This document shows, one piece after another, positions 199 to 14,486 of a DNA stretch of 46,265 nt; position 1 is the first letter of the stretch, and every line of letters starts with the position of its first letter. The stretch is from the NCBI GenBank assembly GCA_020851635.1, contig JADZCJ010000110.1, forward strand, positions 1-46,265, given 5' to 3'. The notes below the pieces were generated by a model. The model made no database searches, was not told where the DNA came from, and was given only the letters and a program-made list of their open reading frames with translations. Made by a program: the position numbers and the translations under genes. The stretch is from Anaerolineae bacterium. Lineage in GTDB: Bacteria; Chloroflexota; Anaerolineae; UBA4142; SHND01.

Positions 199-221
199 CC
201 CTCCCCTTATCAAGGGGAGGG
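199..221. repeat. Palindrome carrying the hsdM stop codon
   Basis: Perfect 10-bp arms CCCTCCCCTT (199-208) and AAGGGGAGGG (212-221) with a 3-base loop. The minus-strand TGA stop codon of hsdM (212-210) spans the loop, so the last residues of HsdM (VPSP) are encoded by the repeat arm. This suggests that a palindromic element was added at the gene end and now provides its terminus. Confidence 0.8.
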
Positions 222-1685
222 AACTTGGGATTCGAGCTCCTGGTAGATGGCGGTGAATTGGGCGAGGGCGGCTTCGAGGTTTTCGGTGATTTCGAGCGCG
301 AGGACGTCGGGGTCGGGAAGGTTTTCGGAAGCTTCCAAGGAGGCGTCCTTGAGCCAAAAGATGTCGAGTGAGGTCTTGTCGCGGGCGGTGATTTCGTCAT
401 AGGTGAACGGGCGAAAGCGTTCGTTGGGTTCACGCTGGTGGCGGTTGGTCGGGTTGTAGGAACGAATGAAATCCTGGAGGTCAGAGAGTGCGAGCGGATT
501 GGTTTTGAGCGTAAAGTGCATGTTGGTGCGAAGGTCGTAGATCCAAAGTTTTTCGGTCCACGGATTTTCGCGGGCGGGCTTGCGGTCGAAAAAGAGGACG
601 TTGGCTTTGACGCCCTGGGCGTAAAAGATGCCGGTGGGAAGGCGGAGAAGGGTGTGAACGTCGCACTCGGCGAGGAGTTTTTTGCGGATGGTCTCGCCCG
701 CGCCGCCCTCAAAGAGGACGTTGTCGGGTACGACGACGGCGGCGCGCCCGTTGATTTTGAGCAATGTCTTGATGTGCTGGACGAAATTTAGTTGTTTGTT
801 GGAGGTGGTCGCCCAGAAATCCTGCCGCTCGTAGATGAGGGATTCTTTGTCGGCTTTGCCGTCTTCGCCCACGATGGTGATGCTGCTCTTTTTGCCAAAG
901 GGGGGGTTGGTCATGACGAGATCGAAACGGTCGCCGGGGTCGGACGCGAGAGAATCGCCGACGACGATGGGACTGGCGTCACCGCCGATGCCGTGAAGGT
1001 ATAGGTTCATGACGCAGAGGCGCGCGGCACTGTCCACGATCTCCCAACCTTTGAAGGCGTCGTTTTTGAGAAATTGTTTTTGTTCTTTGTCGAGCGCATA
1101 GTTGGCGGGGTCGGAGATGTAATCGTGGGCGGCGAGAAAGAAACCGCCGGTGCCGCAGGCGGGGTCGCAGATGGTCTGCATAGGAGCGGGGCGCATGACG
1201 GCTACGATGGCTTTGATGAGCTCGCGGGGGGTAAAGTATTGGCCCGCACCGCTTTTGATGTCCTGGGCGTTCTTTTGGAGGAGGCCCTCGTAAATTTCGC
1301 CCTTGGTGTCTATGTCGAGGCCCATCCACGTTTCTTCGTTGATGAGGTCAATGAGGCGGCGGAGTTTGGCGGGATCCTGGATGCGGTTTTGGGACTTGCG
1401 AAAGATGACGCCGAGTAGTCCGCCGCCTTTGCCGAGCTGTTCGAGGATATGGCGGTAGTGGACTTCGAGGGCGTCGCCGTCCTTGTCGAACAGAGACTGC
1501 CAGTCAAGCCCTGCGGGGATGGCGGAGGGTTTGTTGAAGGGCGGTTTGGACTGTTCGTCCGCCATTTTTAAAAAGAGAAGATAGGTGAGCTGCTCGACGT
1601 AGTCGCCGTAGCTGACGCCGTCGTCGCGGAGGAAGTTGCAAGAGTTCCAGAGGCGTTGGACGATGGCGGAGGATTCGTTAGGCAT
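210..1685 (-). CDS. hsdM: Type I restriction-modification system, adenine-specific methyltransferase subunit
   Basis: Modification subunit of a type I R-M complex. With HsdS it would transfer a methyl group from S-adenosylmethionine to adenine N6 at a bipartite DNA site. The 491-residue product has the HsdM N-terminal helical domain (RDDGVSYGDYVEQLTYLLFLK near residues 20-40), the cofactor motif DPACGTGG at about 174-181 and the catalytic NPPF motif at 260-263. The ATG at 1685 is chosen because it begins with family-typical sequence. The reading frame stays open upstream to 1955, but only through a 16-bp tandem repeat and antisense to no recognisable domain. No clear Shine-Dalgarno sequence precedes the ATG; the repeat array ends 16 bases upstream. 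The stop codon lies in a palindrome. It is separated from hsdS by the RAYT gene. Family assignment is firm. Confidence 0.93.
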   Translation of the reverse strand: MPNESSAIVQRLWNSCNFLRDDGVSYGDYVEQLTYLLFLKMADEQSKPPFNKPSAIPAGLDWQSLFDKDGDALEVHYRHILEQLGKGGGLLGVIFRKSQNRIQDPAKLRRLIDLINEETWMGLDIDTKGEIYEGLLQKNAQDIKSGAGQYFTPRELIKAIVAVMRPAPMQTICDPACGTGGFFLAAHDYISDPANYALDKEQKQFLKNDAFKGWEIVDSAARLCVMNLYLHGIGGDASPIVVGDSLASDPGDRFDLVMTNPPFGKKSSITIVGEDGKADKESLIYERQDFWATTSNKQLNFVQHIKTLLKINGRAAVVVPDNVLFEGGAGETIRKKLLAECDVHTLLRLPTGIFYAQGVKANVLFFDRKPARENPWTEKLWIYDLRTNMHFTLKTNPLALSDLQDFIRSYNPTNRHQREPNERFRPFTYDEITARDKTSLDIFWLKDASLEASENLPDPDVLALEITENLEAALAQFTAIYQELESQVPSP

Positions 1686-1701
1686 GGGATTGGTTGGTTG
1701 C

Positions 1702-1845
1702 GCAGAGCGACCACAAGGCAGAGCGACCACAAGGCAGGGCGACCACAAGGCAGGGCGACCACAAGGCAGGGCGACCACAAGGCAGGGCGACCACAAGGCA
1801 GGGCGACCACAAGGCAGGGCGACCACAAGGGTCGCCCCTACGTGG
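1702..1845. repeat. 8 x 16-bp tandem repeat ending in a REP palindrome
   Basis: Eight contiguous copies of the unit GCAGRGCGACCACAAG occupy 1702-1829; the first two copies have A and the rest G at the variable position. The last copy runs into GGTCGCCCCTACG, completing the palindrome GGGCGACC...GGTCGCCC used elsewhere in the window. The array therefore looks like expansion of part of a REP element. Because 16 is not a multiple of three, the minus strand cycles through all frames and reads as a 16-residue peptide period (ALPCGRPALWSPCLVV). The array sits between the RAYT stop codon, which lies inside the terminal element, and the hsdM start codon. Confidence 0.95.
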
Positions 1846-2464
1846 TTTTTTGGTTGTTGGGATGTTGGTCGTCGGCGTTCCAATTGGCGGGATTGTTGGC
1901 GATGTATTCGCGGATTGATTCCAATTCGTTGTTTGTTCGAATAATGTGTTCCCAATAATCGCGTTGGAATAATTTGCGTTCGAATGGTTGCCAGTTCAGA
2001 TGATGGACACCGTTAATGTATTGGTTCGTCACAAGGGATTTCCAGGCACCCAGAATGTTGCCAAGGGTTTGGTTTTGTGTAGGGGCTGTGCCTTGTGCCT
2101 GCCCCTGTTCGGGTGGTGAGACGGGTGCGGCTGCGTCCGACAATCCCAAATCGGGCGACCACAAGGGTGCGCCCCTACGTGGGTTATCCAATTGTTCGGT
2201 GATTAGGATGATACCGTGGACATGGTTTGGCATGACAACAAACTCATCAAGTTCGACGTACGGAAAACGTTGTGGGAGGGCAAGCCATTGTTCCCACAAC
2301 ATTCTGCCCGGATCGTTTAGTTGAATGGCGGCATCAATTATATCGCCAAATAAAAGCGCGCGATGTTGAGTCACAATTGTGAAATAGTAGGCACCCGCCT
2401 GAGAATAATCGTAGTGTTTCAGCCGAATGGAGCGCCGATGGTGTTTCGTGGGATCGTGGGGCAT
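1838..2464 (-). CDS. REP-associated tyrosine transposase (RAYT, Y1/HUH family)
   Basis: A 208-residue single-strand-specific transposase of the Y1 (IS200/IS605-like) superfamily, of the domesticated RAYT type that acts on REP palindromes. Visible features are the N-terminal RRSIRLKHYDYSQAGAYYFT, the HUH motif MPNHVHG (HVH at 81-83) and the C-terminal block FQRDYWEHIIR with the probable nucleophile Tyr170, followed by YIANNPANW. The ATG at 2464 matches the usual RAYT start; 33 more upstream codons are open but not family-like. Residues about 92-128 are encoded by two REP copies (2079-2107 and 2153-2183) in opposite orientation, an in-frame insert in a loop where RAYTs often vary. The TAG stop is part of the flanking repeat. 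Catalytic residues look intact. Confidence 0.9.
   Translation of the reverse strand: MPHDPTKHHRRSIRLKHYDYSQAGAYYFTIVTQHRALLFGDIIDAAIQLNDPGRMLWEQWLALPQRFPYVELDEFVVMPNHVHGIILITEQLDNPRRGAPLWSPDLGLSDAAAPVSPPEQGQAQGTAPTQNQTLGNILGAWKSLVTNQYINGVHHLNWQPFERKLFQRDYWEHIIRTNNELESIREYIANNPANWNADDQHPNNQKTT
2079..2107. repeat. REP copy inside the RAYT gene (reverse orientation)
   Basis: GTAGGGGC...GCCCC form of the REP element, with 6-bp arms AGGGGC (2081-2086) and GCCCCT (2101-2106). It is read in frame as part of the transposase and pairs with the opposite-orientation copy at 2153-2183, a REPIN-like arrangement. Confidence 0.8.
2153..2183. repeat. REP copy inside the RAYT gene (forward orientation)
   Basis: GGGCGACCACAAGGGTGCGC followed by CCCTACGTGGG, in the same orientation as the copy that ends the tandem array. 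It is translated in frame on the minus strand as PRRGAPLWSPDLG within the transposase. Confidence 0.85.
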
Positions 2465-2553
2465 GATGGTTTTCAAACGGACGAGAAGGGCGATAGGGCG
2501 GGCGCCGCCACAAAAGGACTTGGCAGGCACCGCCGCGATTTTTGCAGGCCGGA

Positions 2554-2584
2554 GGGCGGGCACAAGGCACCGCCCCTACGTGGT
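2554..2584. repeat. REP copy providing the hsdS stop codon
   Basis: GGGCGGGCACAAGGCACCGC followed by CCCTACGTGG. On the minus strand the hsdS C-terminus reads ACC ACG TAG into this element; the RAYT ends with the same three codons in the element at 1830-1845. Both genes therefore end Thr-Thr-stop using repeat sequence. Confidence 0.85.
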
Positions 2585-4090
2585 GTTGCGCCGTTTCTTT
2601 TTGGGGGTGTCATTTAACAATGGCAGTTGTTTGGTTTTGCCGTTGGGTTGTTTTTCCCGATTGGCACGAATTCTCTCCAACAATTTCTCGGCGGGTTCGT
2701 CGGTGGGGTCCTGGGGGACGAGGTTGCCGGAGAATGCTTTTTTTAGAATGCTTTGGCGCAGGCGTTCGGATTGGAGAAGGGAGGCATCTATGGTTTTTTC
2801 GATTTGGTCGGCGACGGAGAGGCGGCGTTCGACTTCGGCGACGATCTTCACTTGTTCGATAGGTGACGGAATAAGAATCGGCATTGCGGCAAGTTGAACC
2901 TGATTGATAGAAGCCATTCCCACTACCTGTTGTGCGTTGAAACTGAAGTATGCCTGTCCCTTTGACTGGAACCAGTAACTGACGTACCCACTCTCAAAAG
3001 AATCGCTCCACAGCCTTAAGCGAATATTCTTGCTCTCATACACACAATCTTCCAATCCCTTCGGGATTGGGGCTGCCTTGCCCACAAGTTCCCTGCTGTT
3101 TACACGATTTACGAGAATATCCCCAGGTAGCAGAAGGTATTCTTCGATCTCAGATTTCGCAAGCCTCATTCTCTTGATGTCTTTCCAAACGATTCTGCCA
3201 TTATTATCAATGTTATACATTCTGAGGCAGGCGATCCCCACATGGTCATAATATTCCTTCTCTTTGTATATTCCATTCTTCATCGACTTGGCTATTTCGC
3301 CAATCGTCGCCCACTCCCAACCCTCGGGAGGTTCTTCCAGTTCACTTGTGTTCAATGAGGAAACTTCCTTATGTTTATCGTTCCGTTTTTCTTTGCGTTC
3401 GGCGCGGATGCGTGCGAGGAGGGTGGAGGCGGGTTCGAGTTCGTGTTGGTGGGCGGCGCGCCAATCGGCGGTGAGTTTGCCGGTGACGGCGGACTGGAGG
3501 ACGGATTGGCGGTAGCGTTTTAGTTGTTGTTTGGCGTTTTCGAGTGCGGCGACGCCAGCATCGAGGTCGGAGAAGAGTTGTTCGATTTTGGCGACGATGC
3601 GGTGTTGTTCGGGGAGGGGGGGGACAGGGAATGGGTAGGATGCAAACGCGCTATTTTGAACTCGCATCAGAGAACCGCCAACGCCCGAAGCATTAGAAGC
3701 CAAGAAGTCTCTGAAACTGTTCGTTTGCATGAAGTATTTTAAATATTTCGGGTCGATCCCCTCTTGCTTTGCAAATTGCCGCCACTCTGTTGAGGCTATT
3801 TTGGTATGGGGAGAAAAATCCCCAACAATCCAAACGCGATTTATCCTTGGGTTTATTCCACACAATAAAACAGTTTCGACTTGAACAGTTTTCTTGTTCG
3901 ACCCGATCTCTGCACCTGAAACTATTTCCGGCTTTCCTTCCACAAAATTTGGAACGCTATATAACTCGAACATTTTTGATGGCGTGTCGCTTGGAAGGAT
4001 GGACCGGCTAGTGTCCAGCTGTATCTCTCCGAGCGTGGTCAGTGCCCAGCTTGTGGGAAGCTGTTGATTTTGGTCTTGTTCGTCCATCAT
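2576..4090 (-). CDS. hsdS: Type I restriction-modification system specificity subunit
   Basis: Specificity subunit (504 residues) that would recognise the bipartite DNA target of the HsdRMS complex. Layout: target-recognition domain 1 at about 1-150, a conserved helical region with PLPEQHRIVAKIEQLF and a coiled-coil spacer at about 150-240, domain 2 at about 245-410 beginning PPEGWEWATIGEIA, and a second conserved helical region (PSPIEQVKIVAEVERRLSVA) to about 480. By eye the DNA of the two recognition domains (about 2880-3400 and 3650-4060) is more AT-rich than the conserved spacer between them, as expected for exchanged recognition modules. The last codons are lysine/arginine-rich and end in a REP element. 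The gene follows hsdR after a 223-base repeat-filled gap. Confidence 0.93.
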   Translation of the reverse strand: MMDEQDQNQQLPTSWALTTLGEIQLDTSRSILPSDTPSKMFELYSVPNFVEGKPEIVSGAEIGSNKKTVQVETVLLCGINPRINRVWIVGDFSPHTKIASTEWRQFAKQEGIDPKYLKYFMQTNSFRDFLASNASGVGGSLMRVQNSAFASYPFPVPPLPEQHRIVAKIEQLFSDLDAGVAALENAKQQLKRYRQSVLQSAVTGKLTADWRAAHQHELEPASTLLARIRAERKEKRNDKHKEVSSLNTSELEEPPEGWEWATIGEIAKSMKNGIYKEKEYYDHVGIACLRMYNIDNNGRIVWKDIKRMRLAKSEIEEYLLLPGDILVNRVNSRELVGKAAPIPKGLEDCVYESKNIRLRLWSDSFESGYVSYWFQSKGQAYFSFNAQQVVGMASINQVQLAAMPILIPSPIEQVKIVAEVERRLSVADQIEKTIDASLLQSERLRQSILKKAFSGNLVPQDPTDEPAEKLLERIRANREKQPNGKTKQLPLLNDTPKKKRRNTT

Positions 4091-4146
4091 GCCACCAATA
4101 CCGTGTTCAATTCATTCATCAGAGGTTCCAATTGATTCAGAGGGTT

Positions 4147-4295
4147 GGGCGACCACAAGGGTGCGCCCCTACGGGTGGATGAGATTCAGGCGTAGGGGCT
4201 GTGCCTTGTGCCTGCCCCATGTTTGGTTCGGGCGACCGTTCGCATACGGGCGACCACACACGCCGATACGGGCGACCACAAGGGTCGCCCCTACG
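4147..4295. repeat. Cluster of REP elements between hsdR and hsdS
   Basis: Three blocks: a forward copy at 4147-4175, a reverse copy at 4191-4219 (GTAGGGGC...GCCCC), and a stuttered forward block at 4229-4295 in which GGGCGACC occurs at 4229, 4248 and 4269 before a complete palindrome ending CGCCCCTACG. The forward/reverse pair at 4147-4219 resembles a REPIN, and the stutter resembles an early stage of the tandem expansion seen at 1702-1829. The cluster fills nearly all of the space between hsdR and hsdS. Confidence 0.85.
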
Positions 4296-4313
4296 AGATG
4301 GGTGCATGTTTTG

Positions 4314-7058
4314 TTACCCCACAAGCACGGTATTTAGTTCCTCCATGAGCGGTTCCAGGTCGCTGCCGAACAGGTAGTATGCTTTGACGCGGCCGCCGTG
4401 CTGGTTGAAAGGGACGTCGTCGAAATCGTCCCAGCCGATGGCGGCGGAGGTGATGATATGGTCTTTGATCATGGTGAGCCAGGTCTGCTGTTCGAGTGTG
4501 AAAACGCGCCCGTTTTGGTTTGAGAGCCATGCCGAAAAATTGCGGTCCACGACGGCGGAAAAGGGTTCGAGTTGGGCGTCCTGACCGAGGGCAAAACGTA
4601 CGAGTGAGACGAGATTGGTCAAGAGTTTTTGAGTGCTCGCACCGCGCACTTTGGACTTGTCGAGCTGGGCGTAGGCCTGCCAGAGTTTGTCCGCATCGAG
4701 ATTATAGGGCGGTTTGCTGATGGCGTCGGCGAGTTCGCGGATTTCGGCGTAGGTGAGGTGGCGGCGCGAATAGGGCAGGTTGTAGAGGATTTGCAGGGCG
4801 GTGATTTCGTCCTTGTTGTCGGCGATGAATTTCTCAAAGGATTCGACCGTCCTGCGGGCGCGTGCCGCGGCATCGGCGTCGAAACCGGCAGAGAGGACCG
4901 TGTCCTTGCTGACGTTGTCAATGGTCTGCTCGTTACGCTTTTGCGTTTCGACGAGAAGGTTGCGCAGGTCGGGATTGTCAAAGACCGCGCACGCCTCGTC
5001 GGCGAGCGCGGTGGCGGCATCCGTGATTTGGGCGTCGGTCGGCGTCGGCGTGTTGAAAAGAGTTTGCGCGCGGGCGATTTGAGTTTCCGGCTCGATGGCG
5101 TCGAGCAATTGGTTGACGATTTCGGAGAGGGGCGCACCCCCGGTTTTTTGGATGGCGGCGCGGTCGCGCGAATCGAGCTCGCGGTCGAGACGGGCGAGGC
5201 GACCCGCGAGTGAGGAAAGGGTGTCCTCGTCGCGTGCGCCGACGGCGACGCTGGTGAGCAGTTTCTCGAACGAGACGGAGCGTTTGCGTTCGAGGGGGCG
5301 AGAATCGGTCTTGATGCGTTCGGTCACGCCGATGGCGTCCACAATGACGAAATGGGTTTTGTGCGCGGCGTCGGGGGTGACGGCGTTGAGATCGGTCTCG
5401 GAGATCGTGCGGGTGCCACGCCCCTTCATCTGTTCGAAATAGACGGCGGACCTGACATCACGCATGAACAAGAGACATTCGAGCGGCTTGATGTCGGTGC
5501 CGGTCGAAATCATGTCCACCGTCACGGCGATGCGCGGATTGTAGGAATTGCGAAAGCTGGCGATGAGGTCTTCGGGTTTTTCGCCCGTGACGCGATAGGT
5601 GATTTTTTTGGCGAACTCGTTGCCCTTGGCAAATTCCTCGCTGACGATGTGGAGAATGTCTTCGGCGTGCGTGTCGTCTTTGGCGAAAATCAGCGTCTTG
5701 GGCACCTCGGTGCGACCCGGAAAGATTTCGGGCAGTTTGTCACGAAAGGTACGGATGATGGTGCGAATCTGGTCGGGGGCAACGATGGCGCGGTCGAGCT
5801 GTTCGCCGCCATATTCGAGGTCGGCGTCGAGCTGCTCCCAACGCATGCGGCGCGTTTGGCGGTCGCGTTTGTCCACATAAAAGCCCGCGTCCACCTTGCT
5901 ACCGCCCGAGGTGATGGCGGTCTTGATCCGATACACATCAAAGCCGACGTTGACGCCGTCCGCGACGGCGCGCTCGTGGCTGTATTCGGTGACGAGATTT
6001 TGATTGAAAAAGCCGAGCGTTTGTTTGGAGGGCGTGGCGGTCAAGCCGATGAGATGCGCGTCGAAATAGTCAAGGACCTGACGCCAGACGTTGTAGATGG
6101 AGCGGTGACATTCGTCGGTGATGATGAAATCAAAGGTCTCGATGGGAATGTTTGGGTTGTAGGCAACGTCGCGCGGTTTTTGGTCCGGCACGTCGAGGTC
6201 GAAGAGAGAGCGTTCTTCCAAGTCGTCCTCGAACTCGGTTTCGCCGCGGAGCATGGAATAGAGCCGCTGAATGGTGGTGATGCAAACGCGGCTCGACTTG
6301 TCGAGCGCGTTCGAGGTGAGGTGCTGGACGTTGTAGAGCTCGGTGAAAAGGCGGCCGTCGTCAGGCGTGCGATACTGCTGGAATTCGCGCAGGGTCTGGC
6401 GACCGAGATTGTTGCGGTCGACGAGAAAGAGGATGCGGCGCGCGTTGGCGAATTTGATAAGGCGATAGACGGCACTGACGGCGGTGAACGTCTTGCCGCT
6501 GCCGGTTGCCATTTGGATGAGCGCGCGGGGTCGGTCCTGTGACAGGGACACTTCCAAGTTCTTGATTGCTTCAACCTGGCAGTCGCGAAGCCCGGTTTCG
6601 TCGAGCGGCGGCAAGTAGCGCAGACGCTTGCGCACCGTGTCGCCTTGCTTGAGCCAGTCGGCGAGGGTTTCGGGACGATGAAAGGAAAAGACGGGACGCT
6701 GGCGCGGGTCAGGGTCGCGCAGGTCGGTGAAGCGGGTCTCGGAGCCGGTGCTCTCGTAGCCAAACGGAAGCGGGAGCTTGACCTGCGGCAGATTGGCGGG
6801 CGTGGCGGTCTGGTATTTTTCCGTTTGCTCGTGAACCGCGCCGAGCGTAAAGCCCTCAGGTTTGGCTTCGACCACGCCAACGGGTTTGCGATCCACAAAC
6901 AAGAGATAGTCCGCCTCGCCGATGTTTTGAACCGGGTATTCGCGCACGGCGACGCCGAGAGAGGCGCCAAGGTTGATTTGATTTTTGTTTTGAATGGTCC
7001 ACCCCGCCGCGACGAGCATGGCATCTATTTTCTGGCGGGCGAGTTCTTCGGGGGTCAT
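4314..7058 (-). CDS. hsdR: Type I restriction endonuclease, motor/nuclease subunit
   Basis: Restriction subunit (914 residues) that translocates DNA using ATP and cleaves it when a target is unmethylated. The N-terminal nuclease domain shows D50 and E64-A-K66 of a PD-(D/E)XK site. The SF2 helicase core has Walker A ATGSGKT (184-190), DECH box (315-318) and TATPS (340-344), followed by the second helicase domain (GRGTRT). A C-terminal helical region of the EcoEI type follows. The length is normal for the smaller EcoEI-like HsdR group. It is first in the transcription order R-S-M and has a canonical promoter at 7109-7137, 44 bases of leader upstream. No disruption is visible. Confidence 0.94.
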   Translation of the reverse strand: MTPEELARQKIDAMLVAAGWTIQNKNQINLGASLGVAVREYPVQNIGEADYLLFVDRKPVGVVEAKPEGFTLGAVHEQTEKYQTATPANLPQVKLPLPFGYESTGSETRFTDLRDPDPRQRPVFSFHRPETLADWLKQGDTVRKRLRYLPPLDETGLRDCQVEAIKNLEVSLSQDRPRALIQMATGSGKTFTAVSAVYRLIKFANARRILFLVDRNNLGRQTLREFQQYRTPDDGRLFTELYNVQHLTSNALDKSSRVCITTIQRLYSMLRGETEFEDDLEERSLFDLDVPDQKPRDVAYNPNIPIETFDFIITDECHRSIYNVWRQVLDYFDAHLIGLTATPSKQTLGFFNQNLVTEYSHERAVADGVNVGFDVYRIKTAITSGGSKVDAGFYVDKRDRQTRRMRWEQLDADLEYGGEQLDRAIVAPDQIRTIIRTFRDKLPEIFPGRTEVPKTLIFAKDDTHAEDILHIVSEEFAKGNEFAKKITYRVTGEKPEDLIASFRNSYNPRIAVTVDMISTGTDIKPLECLLFMRDVRSAVYFEQMKGRGTRTISETDLNAVTPDAAHKTHFVIVDAIGVTERIKTDSRPLERKRSVSFEKLLTSVAVGARDEDTLSSLAGRLARLDRELDSRDRAAIQKTGGAPLSEIVNQLLDAIEPETQIARAQTLFNTPTPTDAQITDAATALADEACAVFDNPDLRNLLVETQKRNEQTIDNVSKDTVLSAGFDADAAARARRTVESFEKFIADNKDEITALQILYNLPYSRRHLTYAEIRELADAISKPPYNLDADKLWQAYAQLDKSKVRGASTQKLLTNLVSLVRFALGQDAQLEPFSAVVDRNFSAWLSNQNGRVFTLEQQTWLTMIKDHIITSAAIGWDDFDDVPFNQHGGRVKAYYLFGSDLEPLMEELNTVLVG

Positions 7059-8571: not shown

Positions 8572-9774
8572 TCAATCGCTCGTCATGATAAACAGGGGTT
8601 TCATCTCAAAGCTCTTGTAATGGGGGCGCAGTCGTTCGGTGTTGTAGAACTTGTCAATGTTAACGGTCTTTTTTGCGCCGCTCACGACCTCGATCGGCAG
8701 ATTATCATAGCGCCCGTTCTTGAGGACGACGAGCCGGCCGTGCATGCCGCGTTGAATCAAGTCCAGCGCAAGGTTGCCATACGCCATCGGGACAATCGAA
8801 TCAATGGCATCGGGGTCGCCGCCGCGGACCAGATAGCCGAGACGCTGATTGATTACGTTGATGGTTCGACCGTTGTTGAACTGCGGCGAAAGATTCTTGA
8901 GCTCGGCGGAAACGAGATCGCCGACGCCGCCCAACTTGGCATGTCCGAACGCGTCGGTCGCGGACCCTTCGACGACCATGCCGCCTTCCGCAAAAGTGGC
9001 GCCTTCGGACACGAGGACGACCGAGTAGCGGCTCGGGTTCTTTTTGCGGTCCTCGCTGAGCAGTTGAGCGAGTTTCTCCATTTCGAAGCGGTATTCCGGG
9101 ATGACGCAGCGATTGGCGGCGCCCGCCATCGTCGGCAGGATGGCAGTAAAGCCCGCATAGCGGCCGAATACTTCGATGACCATGTAGCGTTCGTGCGACC
9201 CCGCCGAAGTCCGCAGGCGATTCACAAGCTCGATGGTGCGGCTGACGCAGGTGCTAAAGCCAATACAATAGTCCGTGCCGGGCACGTCATTGTCCATCGT
9301 TTTGGGGATCGCCACCACTTTGAAACCCGCCCTGGCAAGACGCACGCCATAGCCGAGCGTGTCATCGCCGCCGATGGGAATCAAAAAGTCAACTCCTAAA
9401 AAGCTCAGGTTCTTGAGCACCTCATCGGTCAAATCATTCTTGTCTGCCGTATATTTGTCCCGCAGATGTTCCGGCACGCTGCCCTTGGAGACGGAACCGG
9501 GGTTTGTGCGCGACGTGTGCAGAAAAGTCCCGCCGGTCCGACCGGCCCGGTTGACGATCTCTTCTGTGAGGACGGTAAAATTCTGGCTGTTGTCTGCTTG
9601 TTCGTCGCGGATGATTTCCATCGTCCCCGCCCAGCCGCGCCGGATGCCGATGACCTTGTAGCCTTCGCGCAGTGCGCGGATCGTCACCGCGCGGATCGCC
9701 GGGTTCAAGCCGGGGACATCGCCGCCACCGGTCAAGATGCCGATGACGCCTTTGGTTTTTTGAATCTCTGCCAT
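8572..9774 (-). CDS. 6-phosphofructokinase, pyrophosphate-type signature
   Basis: A single-length (400-residue) phosphofructokinase converting fructose-6-P to fructose-1,6-bisphosphate. The glycine-rich start ILTGGGDVPGLNPAIRA is typical of the PfkA superfamily. At the two positions known to decide the phosphoryl donor it has Asp in GGDD (135-138) and Lys in PKTMDND (157-163), where ATP enzymes have Gly and Gly. This predicts use of pyrophosphate and a reversible reaction. The base of the proton-transfer site (D161 in MDND) is present. ATG 9774 begins the family-like sequence; upstream codons to 9867 are open but unconserved. It is last in the nagA cluster, 162 bases after the double-length PFK. 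Donor preference is predicted, not proven. Confidence 0.9.
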   Translation of the reverse strand: MAEIQKTKGVIGILTGGGDVPGLNPAIRAVTIRALREGYKVIGIRRGWAGTMEIIRDEQADNSQNFTVLTEEIVNRAGRTGGTFLHTSRTNPGSVSKGSVPEHLRDKYTADKNDLTDEVLKNLSFLGVDFLIPIGGDDTLGYGVRLARAGFKVVAIPKTMDNDVPGTDYCIGFSTCVSRTIELVNRLRTSAGSHERYMVIEVFGRYAGFTAILPTMAGAANRCVIPEYRFEMEKLAQLLSEDRKKNPSRYSVVLVSEGATFAEGGMVVEGSATDAFGHAKLGGVGDLVSAELKNLSPQFNNGRTINVINQRLGYLVRGGDPDAIDSIVPMAYGNLALDLIQRGMHGRLVVLKNGRYDNLPIEVVSGAKKTVNIDKFYNTERLRPHYKSFEMKPLFIMTSD

Positions 9775-9909: not shown

Positions 9910-9938
9910 TCGCCTCTGAATGGCGATTTTTTGTTTTT
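9910..9938 (+). terminator. Possible weak plus-strand terminator between the two PFK genes
   Basis: A short stem TCGCC (9910-9914) / GGCGA (9922-9926) is followed by TTTTTTGTTTTT on the plus strand. Both flanking genes are on the minus strand, so it could only stop antisense transcription. On the minus strand no T-tract follows the stem. Low weight. Confidence 0.3.
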
Positions 9939-12165
9939 ACGAGATAGGAGGTTCCGCCATGGTCACGGCAATTTTTTGGTTCTCGAGCCAGGGCTGGTCT
10001 CGGGGGCGCTGAAAGCCGGGCTGCATGAGGTCGGGCAAATTGGTGAGCGGCGTGTATTCGATTTTGCCTTCGATCCGTCCGAGACAGCCAACCACAGGCA
10101 CGCCGCGATAGACCTGCTCGACGAGATACTGCAGAGCGCGGCCCGCCAAGCGCGTCGCCTGGATGCGATCGAACGGAGAAGGTCGCCCACCCTGCTGCAT
10201 GTTGCCGAGGATCGAGTGGCGAACGTTGAGCAAGCCGCCGCTCTCTTTTTCAAACATGGTTGCAACAAAATCGGTCTTGATGAAGGCGTCGGCGCGTTCG
10301 CTGGTGACGATGAGACCCACGCGCTTGCCCTGTTGAAAACTGTCACGGAGAAGCAGGACGTCACGGCGGACCTTTTCGAGTTGAATGCCCTCCTCGGGGA
10401 AATAGACGTACTCGGCGCCGGTCGCGATGCCGCACATGAGCGCCAGATAACCCGAATCGCGTCCCATCACCTCGGCGGCAAAACAACGGTGTGAGGCGAG
10501 CGCCGCTTCTTTGAGTTTGTCCAGGTCCTCGACGTTTGAATTGAGCGCGGTGTCGGAGCCGATGGTGAGTTCGGTGCCGGGCAAATCATTGTTGATGGTC
10601 GCGGGAAGGCAGAGAATGGGCAGATTGAATTCGGGAAACTGGGCGCGGCGAGAATGCAATTGATAGGCAAAGTCATAGCCCAGATATCCGCCAATCATCA
10701 ACAAACCATCAATGCGGTGGTCCGCAATCTGCCCGGCGATGAGCGGAAAATCTTTTTCCATCGCCGCACGCGGGTTTGCGCCGAGTTCGGCGCCGCCGCG
10801 CGAGACCCAACCGTGAACGCTCGTCCAGTTCATTTCGCGAATGTCCCCTCTGGCAAAGCCCTCGATCGCGTCATAAATGGCAAGCATGGTGTGTCCCTGA
10901 TCAAGCCCAAGCCGCACCGCCGCGCGCACGGCTGTGTTCATTCCCGGCGCGGGGGCGTCGCCGTGCATGATGGCGAGGCGCAAAGGTCGGGTGTCGGGTC
11001 CGGACGGGCGCGGCTGTGCGCGGAGCAGGGTGTTGAGGATGGTATGCGCCTCGACAAAGCCGCGCCCGCGCATTTGCATGGCTTGGCCATATTCCCGGTC
11101 GCGGATCAAGTCCTGGACCTGCCGCGTCTTGAGCACATTTTCCATCAAGGGTGACGCATAAACGCGATTATCGCGCACGCCAATGAGCCGAGGTTCGCGG
11201 TCGGACGAGTAATTCAAGAGTTCATGGACCGCCGTGTAGCCGATCTGGGTGGGCATGATGCGGTCAAATGCGCTGGGGGAGCCGCCGCGCTGGACGTGCC
11301 CGAGGATGGTGACGCGCGCCTCTTCATTCAGGCGATGAAGCAAAACATTCGAGACGTACTCGCTGGAAATTTCTTTGCCCGCCCGGTTGATAGCGCCCTC
11401 GGCAATCAGGATAATGTTGTGTCGCCGTCCGCTGAGGCGGCCCGCGTGAATCATGGCGCACATCTCTTCTTCCCAACCGGGTTCGGGCGGATTTTCGGGA
11501 ATAAAGAGCCAGTTTGCGCCGGTGGCAAGCCCCGCCATGAGCGCGAGATAGCCGCAGTGGCGCCCCATGACCTGGACGATAAAACTGCGTTGGTGACTGG
11601 CGGCCGTGTTGATGATGGCATCCACCGCCTCGACGATGCGATGAAGCGCCGTGTCCGCGCCAATCGTCATGTCGGTGCCGAACATGTCATTGTCAATCGA
11701 GCCGACCAAGCCAACAATGGCAAGCTCGGGATGGGCGAGCGCCTGATCGGGCGTGATATTTCCTTCCGCGACCAGCTCTGAGAGCAGGTCGCGCCACTCT
11801 TGGCGAAAAAGGTTTGCGCCCGTCTGCGAGCCGTCGCCGCCGATGACGACCAGACCTTGAATGCCATTGTGGACGAGGTTGGCAGCCGCCTGTCTGCGAC
11901 CGTGGCGCGTTCGAAACTCGGACGAACGCGCCGAGCCGATGGCGGTCCCACCTTCGTGCAAAATGCCGGAAACCTCGCGCCATTCCATTTTGCGAATGAG
12001 CTCACCGCCCGCAATCATGCCGGAATAGCCCTCGTAAATGGCATAGCAATCAATGCCGGCAGAGATGGCGGTGCGGACGACCGCGCGGATAGCGGCATTC
12101 ATCCCCTGCGAATCACCGCCGCTGGTGACGACGCCGATGCGTTTGATTTGAGCAATCGAGTTCAT
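9937..12165 (-). CDS. Double-length (eukaryotic-type) ATP-dependent 6-phosphofructokinase
   Basis: A 742-residue tandem fusion of two PfkA domains. The N-half (about 8-380) has an intact ATP-type site: TSGGDSQGMNAA (14-25), GGDGS (109-113), GSIDND with catalytic Asp158 (155-160), MGRHCGYLAL (200-209) and LGHVQRGG (288-295). The C-half (about 396-735) has the same fold signature but lost chemistry: GGDGS has become GGYLG (492-496), TIDND has become TINND with Asn525 in place of the base, and the phosphate-binding His is Asn655 in GNMQQGG. This division of labour, and phrases such as SIDND...GTDMTIG, SHQR and MQQGG...PFDR, are those of eukaryotic PFK-1, whose C-half became a regulatory site. 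The gene lies in the nag cluster, 66 bases after the SIS gene. Confidence 0.92.
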   Translation of the reverse strand: MNSIAQIKRIGVVTSGGDSQGMNAAIRAVVRTAISAGIDCYAIYEGYSGMIAGGELIRKMEWREVSGILHEGGTAIGSARSSEFRTRHGRRQAAANLVHNGIQGLVVIGGDGSQTGANLFRQEWRDLLSELVAEGNITPDQALAHPELAIVGLVGSIDNDMFGTDMTIGADTALHRIVEAVDAIINTAASHQRSFIVQVMGRHCGYLALMAGLATGANWLFIPENPPEPGWEEEMCAMIHAGRLSGRRHNIILIAEGAINRAGKEISSEYVSNVLLHRLNEEARVTILGHVQRGGSPSAFDRIMPTQIGYTAVHELLNYSSDREPRLIGVRDNRVYASPLMENVLKTRQVQDLIRDREYGQAMQMRGRGFVEAHTILNTLLRAQPRPSGPDTRPLRLAIMHGDAPAPGMNTAVRAAVRLGLDQGHTMLAIYDAIEGFARGDIREMNWTSVHGWVSRGGAELGANPRAAMEKDFPLIAGQIADHRIDGLLMIGGYLGYDFAYQLHSRRAQFPEFNLPILCLPATINNDLPGTELTIGSDTALNSNVEDLDKLKEAALASHRCFAAEVMGRDSGYLALMCGIATGAEYVYFPEEGIQLEKVRRDVLLLRDSFQQGKRVGLIVTSERADAFIKTDFVATMFEKESGGLLNVRHSILGNMQQGGRPSPFDRIQATRLAGRALQYLVEQVYRGVPVVGCLGRIEGKIEYTPLTNLPDLMQPGFQRPRDQPWLENQKIAVTMAEPPIS

Positions 12166-12231: not shown

Positions 12232-13278
12232 TTAATGGGTCTCGGTGACCTTGCGGAGACCGCGCGGGTGGTCCACATCATAATCGCGGACGTGGGCGAG
12301 ATACATGGCAAGCAGTTGTCCGGCGACGATGGTGACAATCGGCGACGCCCATTCGGGCGTGGTGGTACGCAAAGCTAATTTGATGCGCGCAAGGTCCAAG
12401 AGCGCGGGCACATCGCTGATGACGATCACTTCGGCGCCGCGCGTGGCGAGCGTGCGGACAAATAGTTCGAGCTCGTTCTGCATGGCGCCCGATGGGGCGA
12501 TGACGATGGTCGGAAACGCCTCTTCGACAAGGGCGACGGGACCGTGCAAGAAATCGGCGCTGCTGTAGGGTTCGGCAAGCACGTATGCGAGTTCCTTGAT
12601 CTTGAGCGCGGTCTCGAACGCGGTGGCATAGTTGAAGCCGCGCCCGATGACGACGCACACGCGCATATAGCGATAACGTTCGGCAGCGCGGGCAATTTCG
12701 TCGCGCATCGCGAGGACAAGTTGCATCTGTCCGGGGACCTTTTCCAGCACCGCGAACATGGAGGCATCATGCGCCATGCTCGCCGACAAGAGCGCCAGCC
12801 CCATGAGCTGGGTGGTGTAGGTCTTGGTAGCTGCAACGGACTGTTCCTGACCCGCGTGAAGGGTAATGACAAAGTCGGATGCCTGCGCCAACGGAGAATC
12901 GGGCACGTTGGTAAAGGCAAGCGTCGCCGCGCCCTGCTCTCGGGCGGCGGCGAGCACCGAAACAATGTCGGGACTCTTGCCGCTCTGAGAAATGCCGATG
13001 ACGAGGGCGTTTTGAAATTTGGGCGGGCGATGATAGACGCTAAAGAGCGATGGGGTGGCAAGCCCGACGGGCAGGCGGTTTACCGCGCCAAACAAGTATT
13101 GGGCGTAACGTCCGGCGTTGTCGCTGGTGCCGCGCGCGGCAATAAATACGTTGGTGATGCGGTGCGCGATGATTTCGTCGGCGATACGCTGAATGTTGGC
13201 GCGTTCGACCGCAAACAAATTGGCGAGGACGGCGGGCTGTTGGTGGATTTCCTGATAGAGAAAAGATTGGGAGAGCAT
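12232..13278 (-). CDS. SIS-domain glucosamine-6-phosphate deaminase/isomerase-like protein (NagB-II type)
   Basis: A 348-residue protein with two SIS domains like the isomerase half of GlmS, but without the glutaminase domain. Sugar-phosphate-binding blocks are visible: ARGTSDNAG (about 48-56), [10 protein letters not shown] (about 94-103), [13 protein letters not shown] (about 145-157) and the C-terminal [12 protein letters not shown], equivalent to the GlmS tail. Such stand-alone proteins include the NagB-II/AgaS deaminases that release ammonia from glucosamine-6-P to give fructose-6-P. The neighbour nagA upstream and two phosphofructokinases downstream fit this direction well. The exact sugar (glucosamine or galactosamine phosphate) is not readable. 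Confidence 0.88.
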
Positions 13279-13340: not shown

Positions 13341-14486
13341 CTATTCCGCTGTATAAACAATGTCGCCTTGTGCGATGGTGAGTTGGACGTTGAGTGATTC
13401 GTCGAGGAGAACGAGGTCGGCGAACATGCCCTGAGCAACGCGGCCGCGTTGATGGTCAATGTTTAATAGTTGGGCAGGCGTGGTGGTGACGGTGGCGAGC
13501 GCGTCGGACAGGGTGCAGCCGGTAAAGGCGATGAAATTACGAACCGCCTGATCGAGGGAAAGAATACTGCCCGCGAGCGTGCCATCGGTCAAGCGCGCAT
13601 CACGGTCGGTGACGAGGCAATCGAAATTTCCGAGACGATACATGCCCGGCGACATGCCGAGCGCCGCCATTGCATCGCTGACGAGGTTGACGCGTGTGCG
13701 CTTGGCATTCCAGACCGTTTTGACGAGCGCGGGGTGCACATGAATGCCGTCGGGGATTAGTCCCGCAACCCAGTCGCGATTGGCGAGGACGGCGCCGGGA
13801 GCATTCGGCGCGCGATGTTCGAGCGGAGGCATGGCGTTGAACAGGTGGGTGGCGTAGCGGATGCCCGCGCCGTAACCGGCGTTCGCCTCGTCCACATCCG
13901 CCATCGTGTGCCCCATGCTGACGACAATGCCGCGAGTCGCCAATTCCTCGACGAGCGCGAGCGCGCCGGGGAGTTCGGGCGCAAGGGTGACGAGCCGGAC
14001 CCCATTGGCACGGGACCAAGTGGGGACAAGACGTGAATCGGGTTGCAGCATCAGGGCGGCGTTGTGCGCGCCTTTTTTTTGCGGATTGAGAAAGGGTCCT
14101 TCGACATGCCAGCCGAGCGGTCCCGCGCCGTGAAAATCCTGCGGGCGGTCCTGTAAAACCGCGAGCGCCGCATCCACTCGATCAAGCGGACAGGTGACAA
14201 GCGTCGGTAGAAAGCAAGTGATACCAAAACGCGGGAGCTGAGCCGCGACGCGCCAGAGCGTTTCGGGGTTGGCGGTGAAATCGTCGCCAAACGCGCCGTT
14301 GAGCTGCAAGTCAATCAAGCCGGGAACGAGGAGCTTGCCATACGCATCAATTTTCTGCGCGCCCGCAGGGACGGTCACTTGAGAGCGGCTGCCGATCTGT
14401 TCGATGATGCCGTCCCGAATTACGAGCGCCGCGTCGTCGAGGCGAGTTTCGGGGGTGTAGATGGTCGCGTTGGAGATGTATAACAT
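13341..14486 (-). CDS. nagA: N-acetylglucosamine-6-phosphate deacetylase
   Basis: Amidohydrolase-fold enzyme of 381 residues removing acetate from GlcNAc-6-P. Key family motifs are present in order: [16 protein letters not shown] (about 55-70), [17 protein letters not shown] with the metal-binding Glu (about 127-143), MGHTMAD (about 191-197), HLFNAMPPL (about 214-222), DGIHVHP (about 247-253) and SDAMAALG with the catalytic Asp (about 271-278). It is first in the amino-sugar/glycolysis group; its product feeds the SIS-domain gene 62 bases downstream. The promoter in the divergent gap to trhA (14487-14638) could not be fixed with confidence. Confidence 0.93.

Follow-up and report, generated by a model that had tools for sequence, protein, structure and literature searches.

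The window analysed here comprises 46,265 nucleotides (positions 1 to 46,265) of contig JADZCJ010000110.1 from an Anaerolineae bacterium of the Chloroflexota (assembly GCA_020851635.1), whose genome is represented by 5.8 Mb in 144 contigs. It contains a gene for a 6-phosphofructokinase (PFK) of double length, an uninterrupted open reading frame of 742 codons that begins with ATG. The gene and its parts, including the binding sites for ATP and fructose-6-phosphate (F6P), are as follows.

9937..12165, minus strand: double-length ATP-type 6-phosphofructokinase, 742 amino acids, stop codon at 9937-9939 (identified by TIGR02478, two copies of PF00365, collinearity with human and yeast PFK-1, and an AlphaFold model)
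11050..12147, minus strand: catalytic N-half, residues 7-372, with the ATP, Mg and F6P residues all kept; groups with eukaryotic N-halves
10990..11118, minus strand: inter-half linker, residues 350-392, with an A(M/L)xxRGxxF motif common to eukaryotic PFK in local alignment
9982..10986, minus strand: residues 394-728, the non-catalytic C-half, in which the F6P pocket remains but the ATP site does not; groups with eukaryotic C-halves

This gene product is genuinely bacterial and belongs to the eukaryotic-type PFK-1 family. Pfam domain PF00365 is present twice (611 bits), and the NCBIfam profile for eukaryotic-type PFK, TIGR02478, matches with 919.4 bits over profile positions 1-741 of 744, against a curated cut-off of 708.4 bits. 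Human liver PFK aligns to it as a single collinear match over its full length (E = 1.7e-201, 674 bits), which excludes a chance likeness, and the yeast PFKs are likewise collinear from end to end. An AlphaFold model built from a 25-sequence alignment (predicted local distance difference test 89, predicted template modelling score 0.90) superimposes on human liver PFK chain 8w2g_A over its full length in Foldseek (template modelling score 0.96, root-mean-square deviation 1.6 Å) and on 8w2h_A with a VIA-align Z score of 51.4 over 731 residues, so that for about 730 residues the modelled fold is that of human PFK. It is a PfkA fold from end to end, and PfkB-type kinases were set aside for that reason. 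The window enzyme lacks the single residue that eukaryotes have inserted at K564 of human muscle PFK (PFKM).

The two halves differ in their active sites. The N-half has the motifs GGDGS (109-113), SIDND (156-160), SHQR (190-193), MGR (200-202) and GHVQRGG (289-295), keeps the Mg-binding D111 and the catalytic D158, and has the catalytic and F6P-binding set complete (D111, D158, R193, E256, R284, H290 and R293). The corresponding C-half motifs are GGYLG (492-496), TINND (523-527) and GNMQQGG (654-660), in which the two aspartates are replaced by Y494 and N525. An earlier note, made from the nucleotide sequence alone, had proposed two fused PfkA domains in the arrangement of eukaryotic PFK-1 with the Mg-binding and catalytic aspartates lost from the C-half, and all of this is borne out. 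It had also pointed to asparagine in place of histidine in GNMQQGG; this is correct for the window but local to its genus, being found in five of 42 aligned bacterial sequences, while 35 keep the histidine as eukaryotes do. The GGDG Mg/ATP motif is missing from the C-half in all 42 bacterial relatives and the catalytic aspartate is retained there in 11. The C-half of one relative (L018, genome G088) has TIDND whole with GGDG gone and appears to be an intermediate in the decay of the active site.

Comparison with characterized families places the enzyme closest to eukaryotic ATP-dependent PFK-1 (TIGR02478, IPR009161; human PFKL, PFKM and PFKP, yeast PFK1 and PFK2), with which it has in common the two fused domains, the linker, the fold, a catalytic N-half, and a C-half that has lost its ATP site and kept its F6P pocket. 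It differs in being bacterial and in an operon, in coming from a genome in which no PFK-2 was found, and in having neither the vertebrate C-terminal tail nor the yeast glyoxalase-like domain. Bacterial PfkA (Bacillus, Geobacillus, E. coli; TIGR02482) has the same active site and ATP-type motifs as the N-half, with 38-44% identity over that half, but at about 320 residues it is half the length, with a single PFK domain, one site per subunit, and neither linker nor C-half. The mixed-substrate or inorganic pyrophosphate (PPi)-dependent PFKs (TIGR02483) belong to the same superfamily but are single-domain proteins with a GGDD plus PKT donor signature and without the double architecture.

The relationship of the halves was examined in trees of 33 double PFKs split into their halves (26 bacterial and seven from animals and yeast) together with single-domain PfkA proteins, the eukaryotic sequences being taken from the Protein Data Bank (PDB) and PDB 4omt, human muscle PFK, serving as the PFKM sequence. 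All N-halves of the double enzymes, bacterial and eukaryotic, fall in one clade and all C-halves in another, each with support of 100/100, and single-domain bacterial PfkA branches inside neither. The two halves are therefore not each other's closest relatives, the outcome by which the earlier note would have recognized a separate bacterial duplication. The linker points the same way: its alignment to the human and yeast linkers beats 2000 of 2000 shuffles in every comparison, and it lies mostly past the ends of the alignments of single-domain PfkA to the window enzyme, at residues 316-353. A single duplication and fusion is common to the bacterial and the animal and fungal PFK-1 enzymes. That bacteria converged independently on this arrangement is scarcely credible and is rejected at the present sampling, since a tree constrained to unite bacterial N- and C-halves is worse by 212 log-likelihood units (p = 1.2e-12) and the linker is common to both groups, even though neighbouring genes often fuse and the window's order has single-domain PFK genes in tandem.

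In the C-half, one of the old substrate pockets has been kept and the other has not. Bacterial C-halves have a mean column conservation of 0.701; columns of the former F6P site stand above it at 0.868 (P = 0.002), and those of the former ATP site (0.613) do not; the F6P-site columns of the bacterial N-halves are invariant (1.000). The pocket is thus conserved among the bacterial homologues, as a regulatory role proposed in the earlier note would lead one to expect. That the C-half still works as a second PFK site is very improbable: the 11 retained catalytic aspartates and the whole TIDND of L018 speak for it, but with GGDG in no bacterial C-half the Mg/ATP motif is gone throughout, and the old ATP site is no better conserved than the average.

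It is also improbable, though far less so, that the C-half is a structural scaffold of the tetramer with no effector. A role of the eukaryotic C-half in stability is stated in a review (PMC12203962), and some pocket positions vary among the bacteria (S or T at 528; N, D, S or T at 530; R, Y, H or F at 575; PFKM numbering, as for the residues below). However, the phosphate and sugar contacts Arg566, Gly574, Glu629, Arg655 and Gln663 do not vary among 23 representatives, next to an old ATP site that has decayed. According to the same review (PMC12203962), the C-terminal half of eukaryotic PFK gave up its ATP pocket, its F6P pocket was converted to the F' effector site, and this site holds fructose-1,6-bisphosphate in a human PFKP structure.

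The identity of the putative bacterial effector is likely to differ from the known eukaryotic one. The window enzyme has N525, D527 and R569 at the positions of S530, N532 and G575, and so does not match the set of residues that we take to form the eukaryotic fructose-2,6-bisphosphate site (T528, S530, N531, N532 and G575; UniProt P08237). S530 and G575 are replaced in nearly all bacterial sequences, none of which has glycine at 575. A search of 201 genomes with the 6-phosphofructo-2-kinase profile PF01591 gave no match in the window genome or in 18 other genomes with a double PFK; weak, scattered matches (best E 3.1e-5) are confined to other genomes of the sample. Because no PFK-2 was found, fructose-2,6-bisphosphate is unlikely as the effector. 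The difference in site residues, the lack of PF01591 matches and the occupancy of the human PFKP F' site together point to fructose-1,6-bisphosphate or F6P as the most likely ligand of the C-half, and the effector is likely to be fructose-1,6-bisphosphate or another sugar phosphate. A plausible mechanism is that the N-half phosphorylates F6P with ATP, that the C-half pocket, equivalent to the F' site, would bind a phosphorylated sugar, most probably the fructose-1,6-bisphosphate product or F6P itself, and that this binding would shift the oligomer toward its active state; eukaryotes would then have put the same pocket to use for fructose-2,6-bisphosphate at a later stage.

Double PFKs are widespread among the relatives of the window genome. 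Of 400 genomes sampled from the phylum, 42 (about a tenth) have a match to TIGR02478 above cut-off, the gene occurring in a number of families and in two or more classes, and a scan of genome contigs gave three Chloroflexota double-PFK loci. All six members of the window's genus that were examined have the gene and a Caldilineales relative is 69% identical to the window enzyme; none of 14 genomes from the sister family of the window's order has it, nor do any of 14 control genomes. Eleven of 20 genomes in a distant order of the class (the order of G184) are above cut-off, mostly with a divergent form. Plasmid and viral collections contain only single-domain PFKs among the rows checked. One Chloroflexia-type enzyme (L008) is 50.1% identical to human PFKL, compared with only 45.4% for yeast PFK1. 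A contaminating eukaryotic contig was considered as the source and rejected, because as many as 42 genomes of the phylum carry the gene, some of them as single contigs (e.g. G118, G134, G166 and G257), and because the GC content of the window gene, overall and at third codon positions (GC3), resembles that of its neighbours.

We also note several irregular loci. The double PFK of one member of the window's genus (L045, at G201:C64) is broken by a change of frame near the C-terminus, with the second piece in a downstream 144-residue frame, reflecting either an assembly error or decay. At G000:C140:169642-169978 there are pieces of another PFK gene, interrupted by a stop, which may be a pseudogene. 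An apparent second fused PFK in G204, an 834-residue read-through frame, was rejected, as it consists of separate in-frame open reading frames with a stop between them.

The direction in which the fused gene travelled is less certain. The deep bacterial clade from the order of G184 is the first branch in both half-trees (100/99 and 100/96), the eukaryotes group with the remaining bacteria in both (100/99 and 100/97), and they are nested among bacteria in every tree. In the first tree the deep branch was a single long-branched sequence (L025), and its placement held when seven sequences of the deep clade were included. No bootstrap tree (0%) has a single bacterial clade. Five approximately unbiased (AU) tests of bacterial monophyly, which share data and are not independent, were made; four reject it (N-halves, p = 0.041; C-halves, p = 0.009; C-halves with only single-domain proteins as outgroup, p = 0.013; a reciprocal concatenation using both halves, p = 0.024). 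With the deep clade branching first, the eukaryotes nested and four of five tests rejecting one bacterial clade, the best reading is that the fusion arose in bacteria, either Chloroflexota or a forebear of theirs, before reaching the animal and fungal lineage by transfer; these trees favour it and do not prove it. Of the two possibilities raised in the earlier note, a bacterial ancestor of the eukaryotic enzyme or a transfer from eukaryotes, the first is thus preferred.

Several observations weigh against a bacterial origin. The fifth test, with N-halves and a wide single-domain outgroup, does not reject a single bacterial clade (p = 0.128), and the N-half tree leaves the eukaryotes and the main bacterial clade without resolution. 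The sampling is of seven animal and yeast sequences on the eukaryotic side and of Chloroflexota plus 14 control genomes on the bacterial side. A change from R to Q in the C-half (giving QQGG) was considered as a clean marker joining eukaryotes with the later bacteria, and is weakened by L108, a member of the window's own clade with VQRGG in its C-half. The C-halves of L108 (G422) and of L109-L118 mostly have H[VIT]QRGG, the ancestral bacterial form, and those of eukaryotes and most bacteria have QQGG.

The alternative is that the fused gene originated in early eukaryotes and reached Chloroflexota by transfer, possibly in two events, one into the clade in the order of G184 and the other into the rest. 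The N-half test that leaves bacterial monophyly standing and the thin eukaryotic sampling give this some room, but we regard it as unlikely given that eukaryotes nest within bacteria in every tree, that four of the five AU tests reject one bacterial clade, that the ancestral QRGG persists in most of the deep bacterial C-halves, and that the gene is distributed so widely among bacterial families and classes. The preferred explanation as a whole, combining a shared fusion, a bacterial origin and a sugar-phosphate effector site in the C-half, is in our judgement reasonably probable.

The genes immediately around the double PFK are the following.

8572..9774, minus strand: mixed-substrate PFK with one domain and the PPi-type signature GGDDT / PKTMDND, the next gene downstream
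12232..13278, minus strand: SIS-domain protein (PF01380), a relative of the GlmS isomerase domain and of the NagB-II glucosamine-6-phosphate deaminase, scoring under the GlmS and NagB-II cut-offs
13341..14486, minus strand: NagA, N-acetylglucosamine-6-phosphate deacetylase (TIGR00221, 315 bits, cut-off 226)

The double PFK follows nagA and the SIS-domain gene on the same strand. With these amino-sugar catabolism genes at the locus, the double PFK of the window's genus can be tied to F6P derived from amino sugars, and there it probably serves the use of N-acetylglucosamine and glucosamine as well as general glycolysis. Each of the six genus members has the SIS-domain gene beside its double PFK. 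A point against this link is that nagA is at the locus in only three of the six and that the neighbours differ in other families, making any connection with amino sugars a local one.

A single-domain PFK with GGDD and PKTMDND adjoins the double PFK in several Chloroflexota families (L012, L015, L017, L024, L038, L096, L097 and L102), a signature that we take, by established motif rules, to denote a PPi-type enzyme. Such a tandem of PPi-type and ATP-type PFKs could provide reversible and irreversible steps. Tandem single-domain PFKs with the signatures GGDGS/PKT and GGDDT/PKT are found in the window's genus (L064 at G204:C47 and L063 at G205:C317), those of G204 being in the same reading frame with a stop between. 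Elsewhere in the window, positions 210-7058 of the minus strand carry Type I restriction-modification genes (hsdM-like, 210-1955; hsdS-like, 2576-4090; EcoEI-type hsdR, 4314-7058).

Textbooks present PFK-1 as a point at which glycolysis is controlled, and the usual account places its doubling in eukaryotes, where it gave rise to new effector sites (e.g. PMC12203962, PMC12889660). Our literature search found no paper on a bacterial eukaryote-type PFK, much of the PFK literature lying outside the journals covered, and TIGR02478 already captures such bacterial proteins in databases. The double arrangement is known from eukaryotes; what is unusual is that bacteria in which no fructose-2,6-bisphosphate synthase was found have it too, over a broad range and with deep branches. 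These bacterial enzymes combine a dead ATP site with a kept sugar pocket, and so provide living comparators for the first role of the regulatory half and make the origin of eukaryotic PFK-1 testable. We lean, if only slightly, towards a fused PFK born in bacteria and given to an ancestor of animals and fungi, with a regulatory half that first sensed another sugar phosphate. If this is true, the regulatory half of textbook PFK-1 would predate not only the eukaryotes that carry it but also fructose-2,6-bisphosphate, its known effector.
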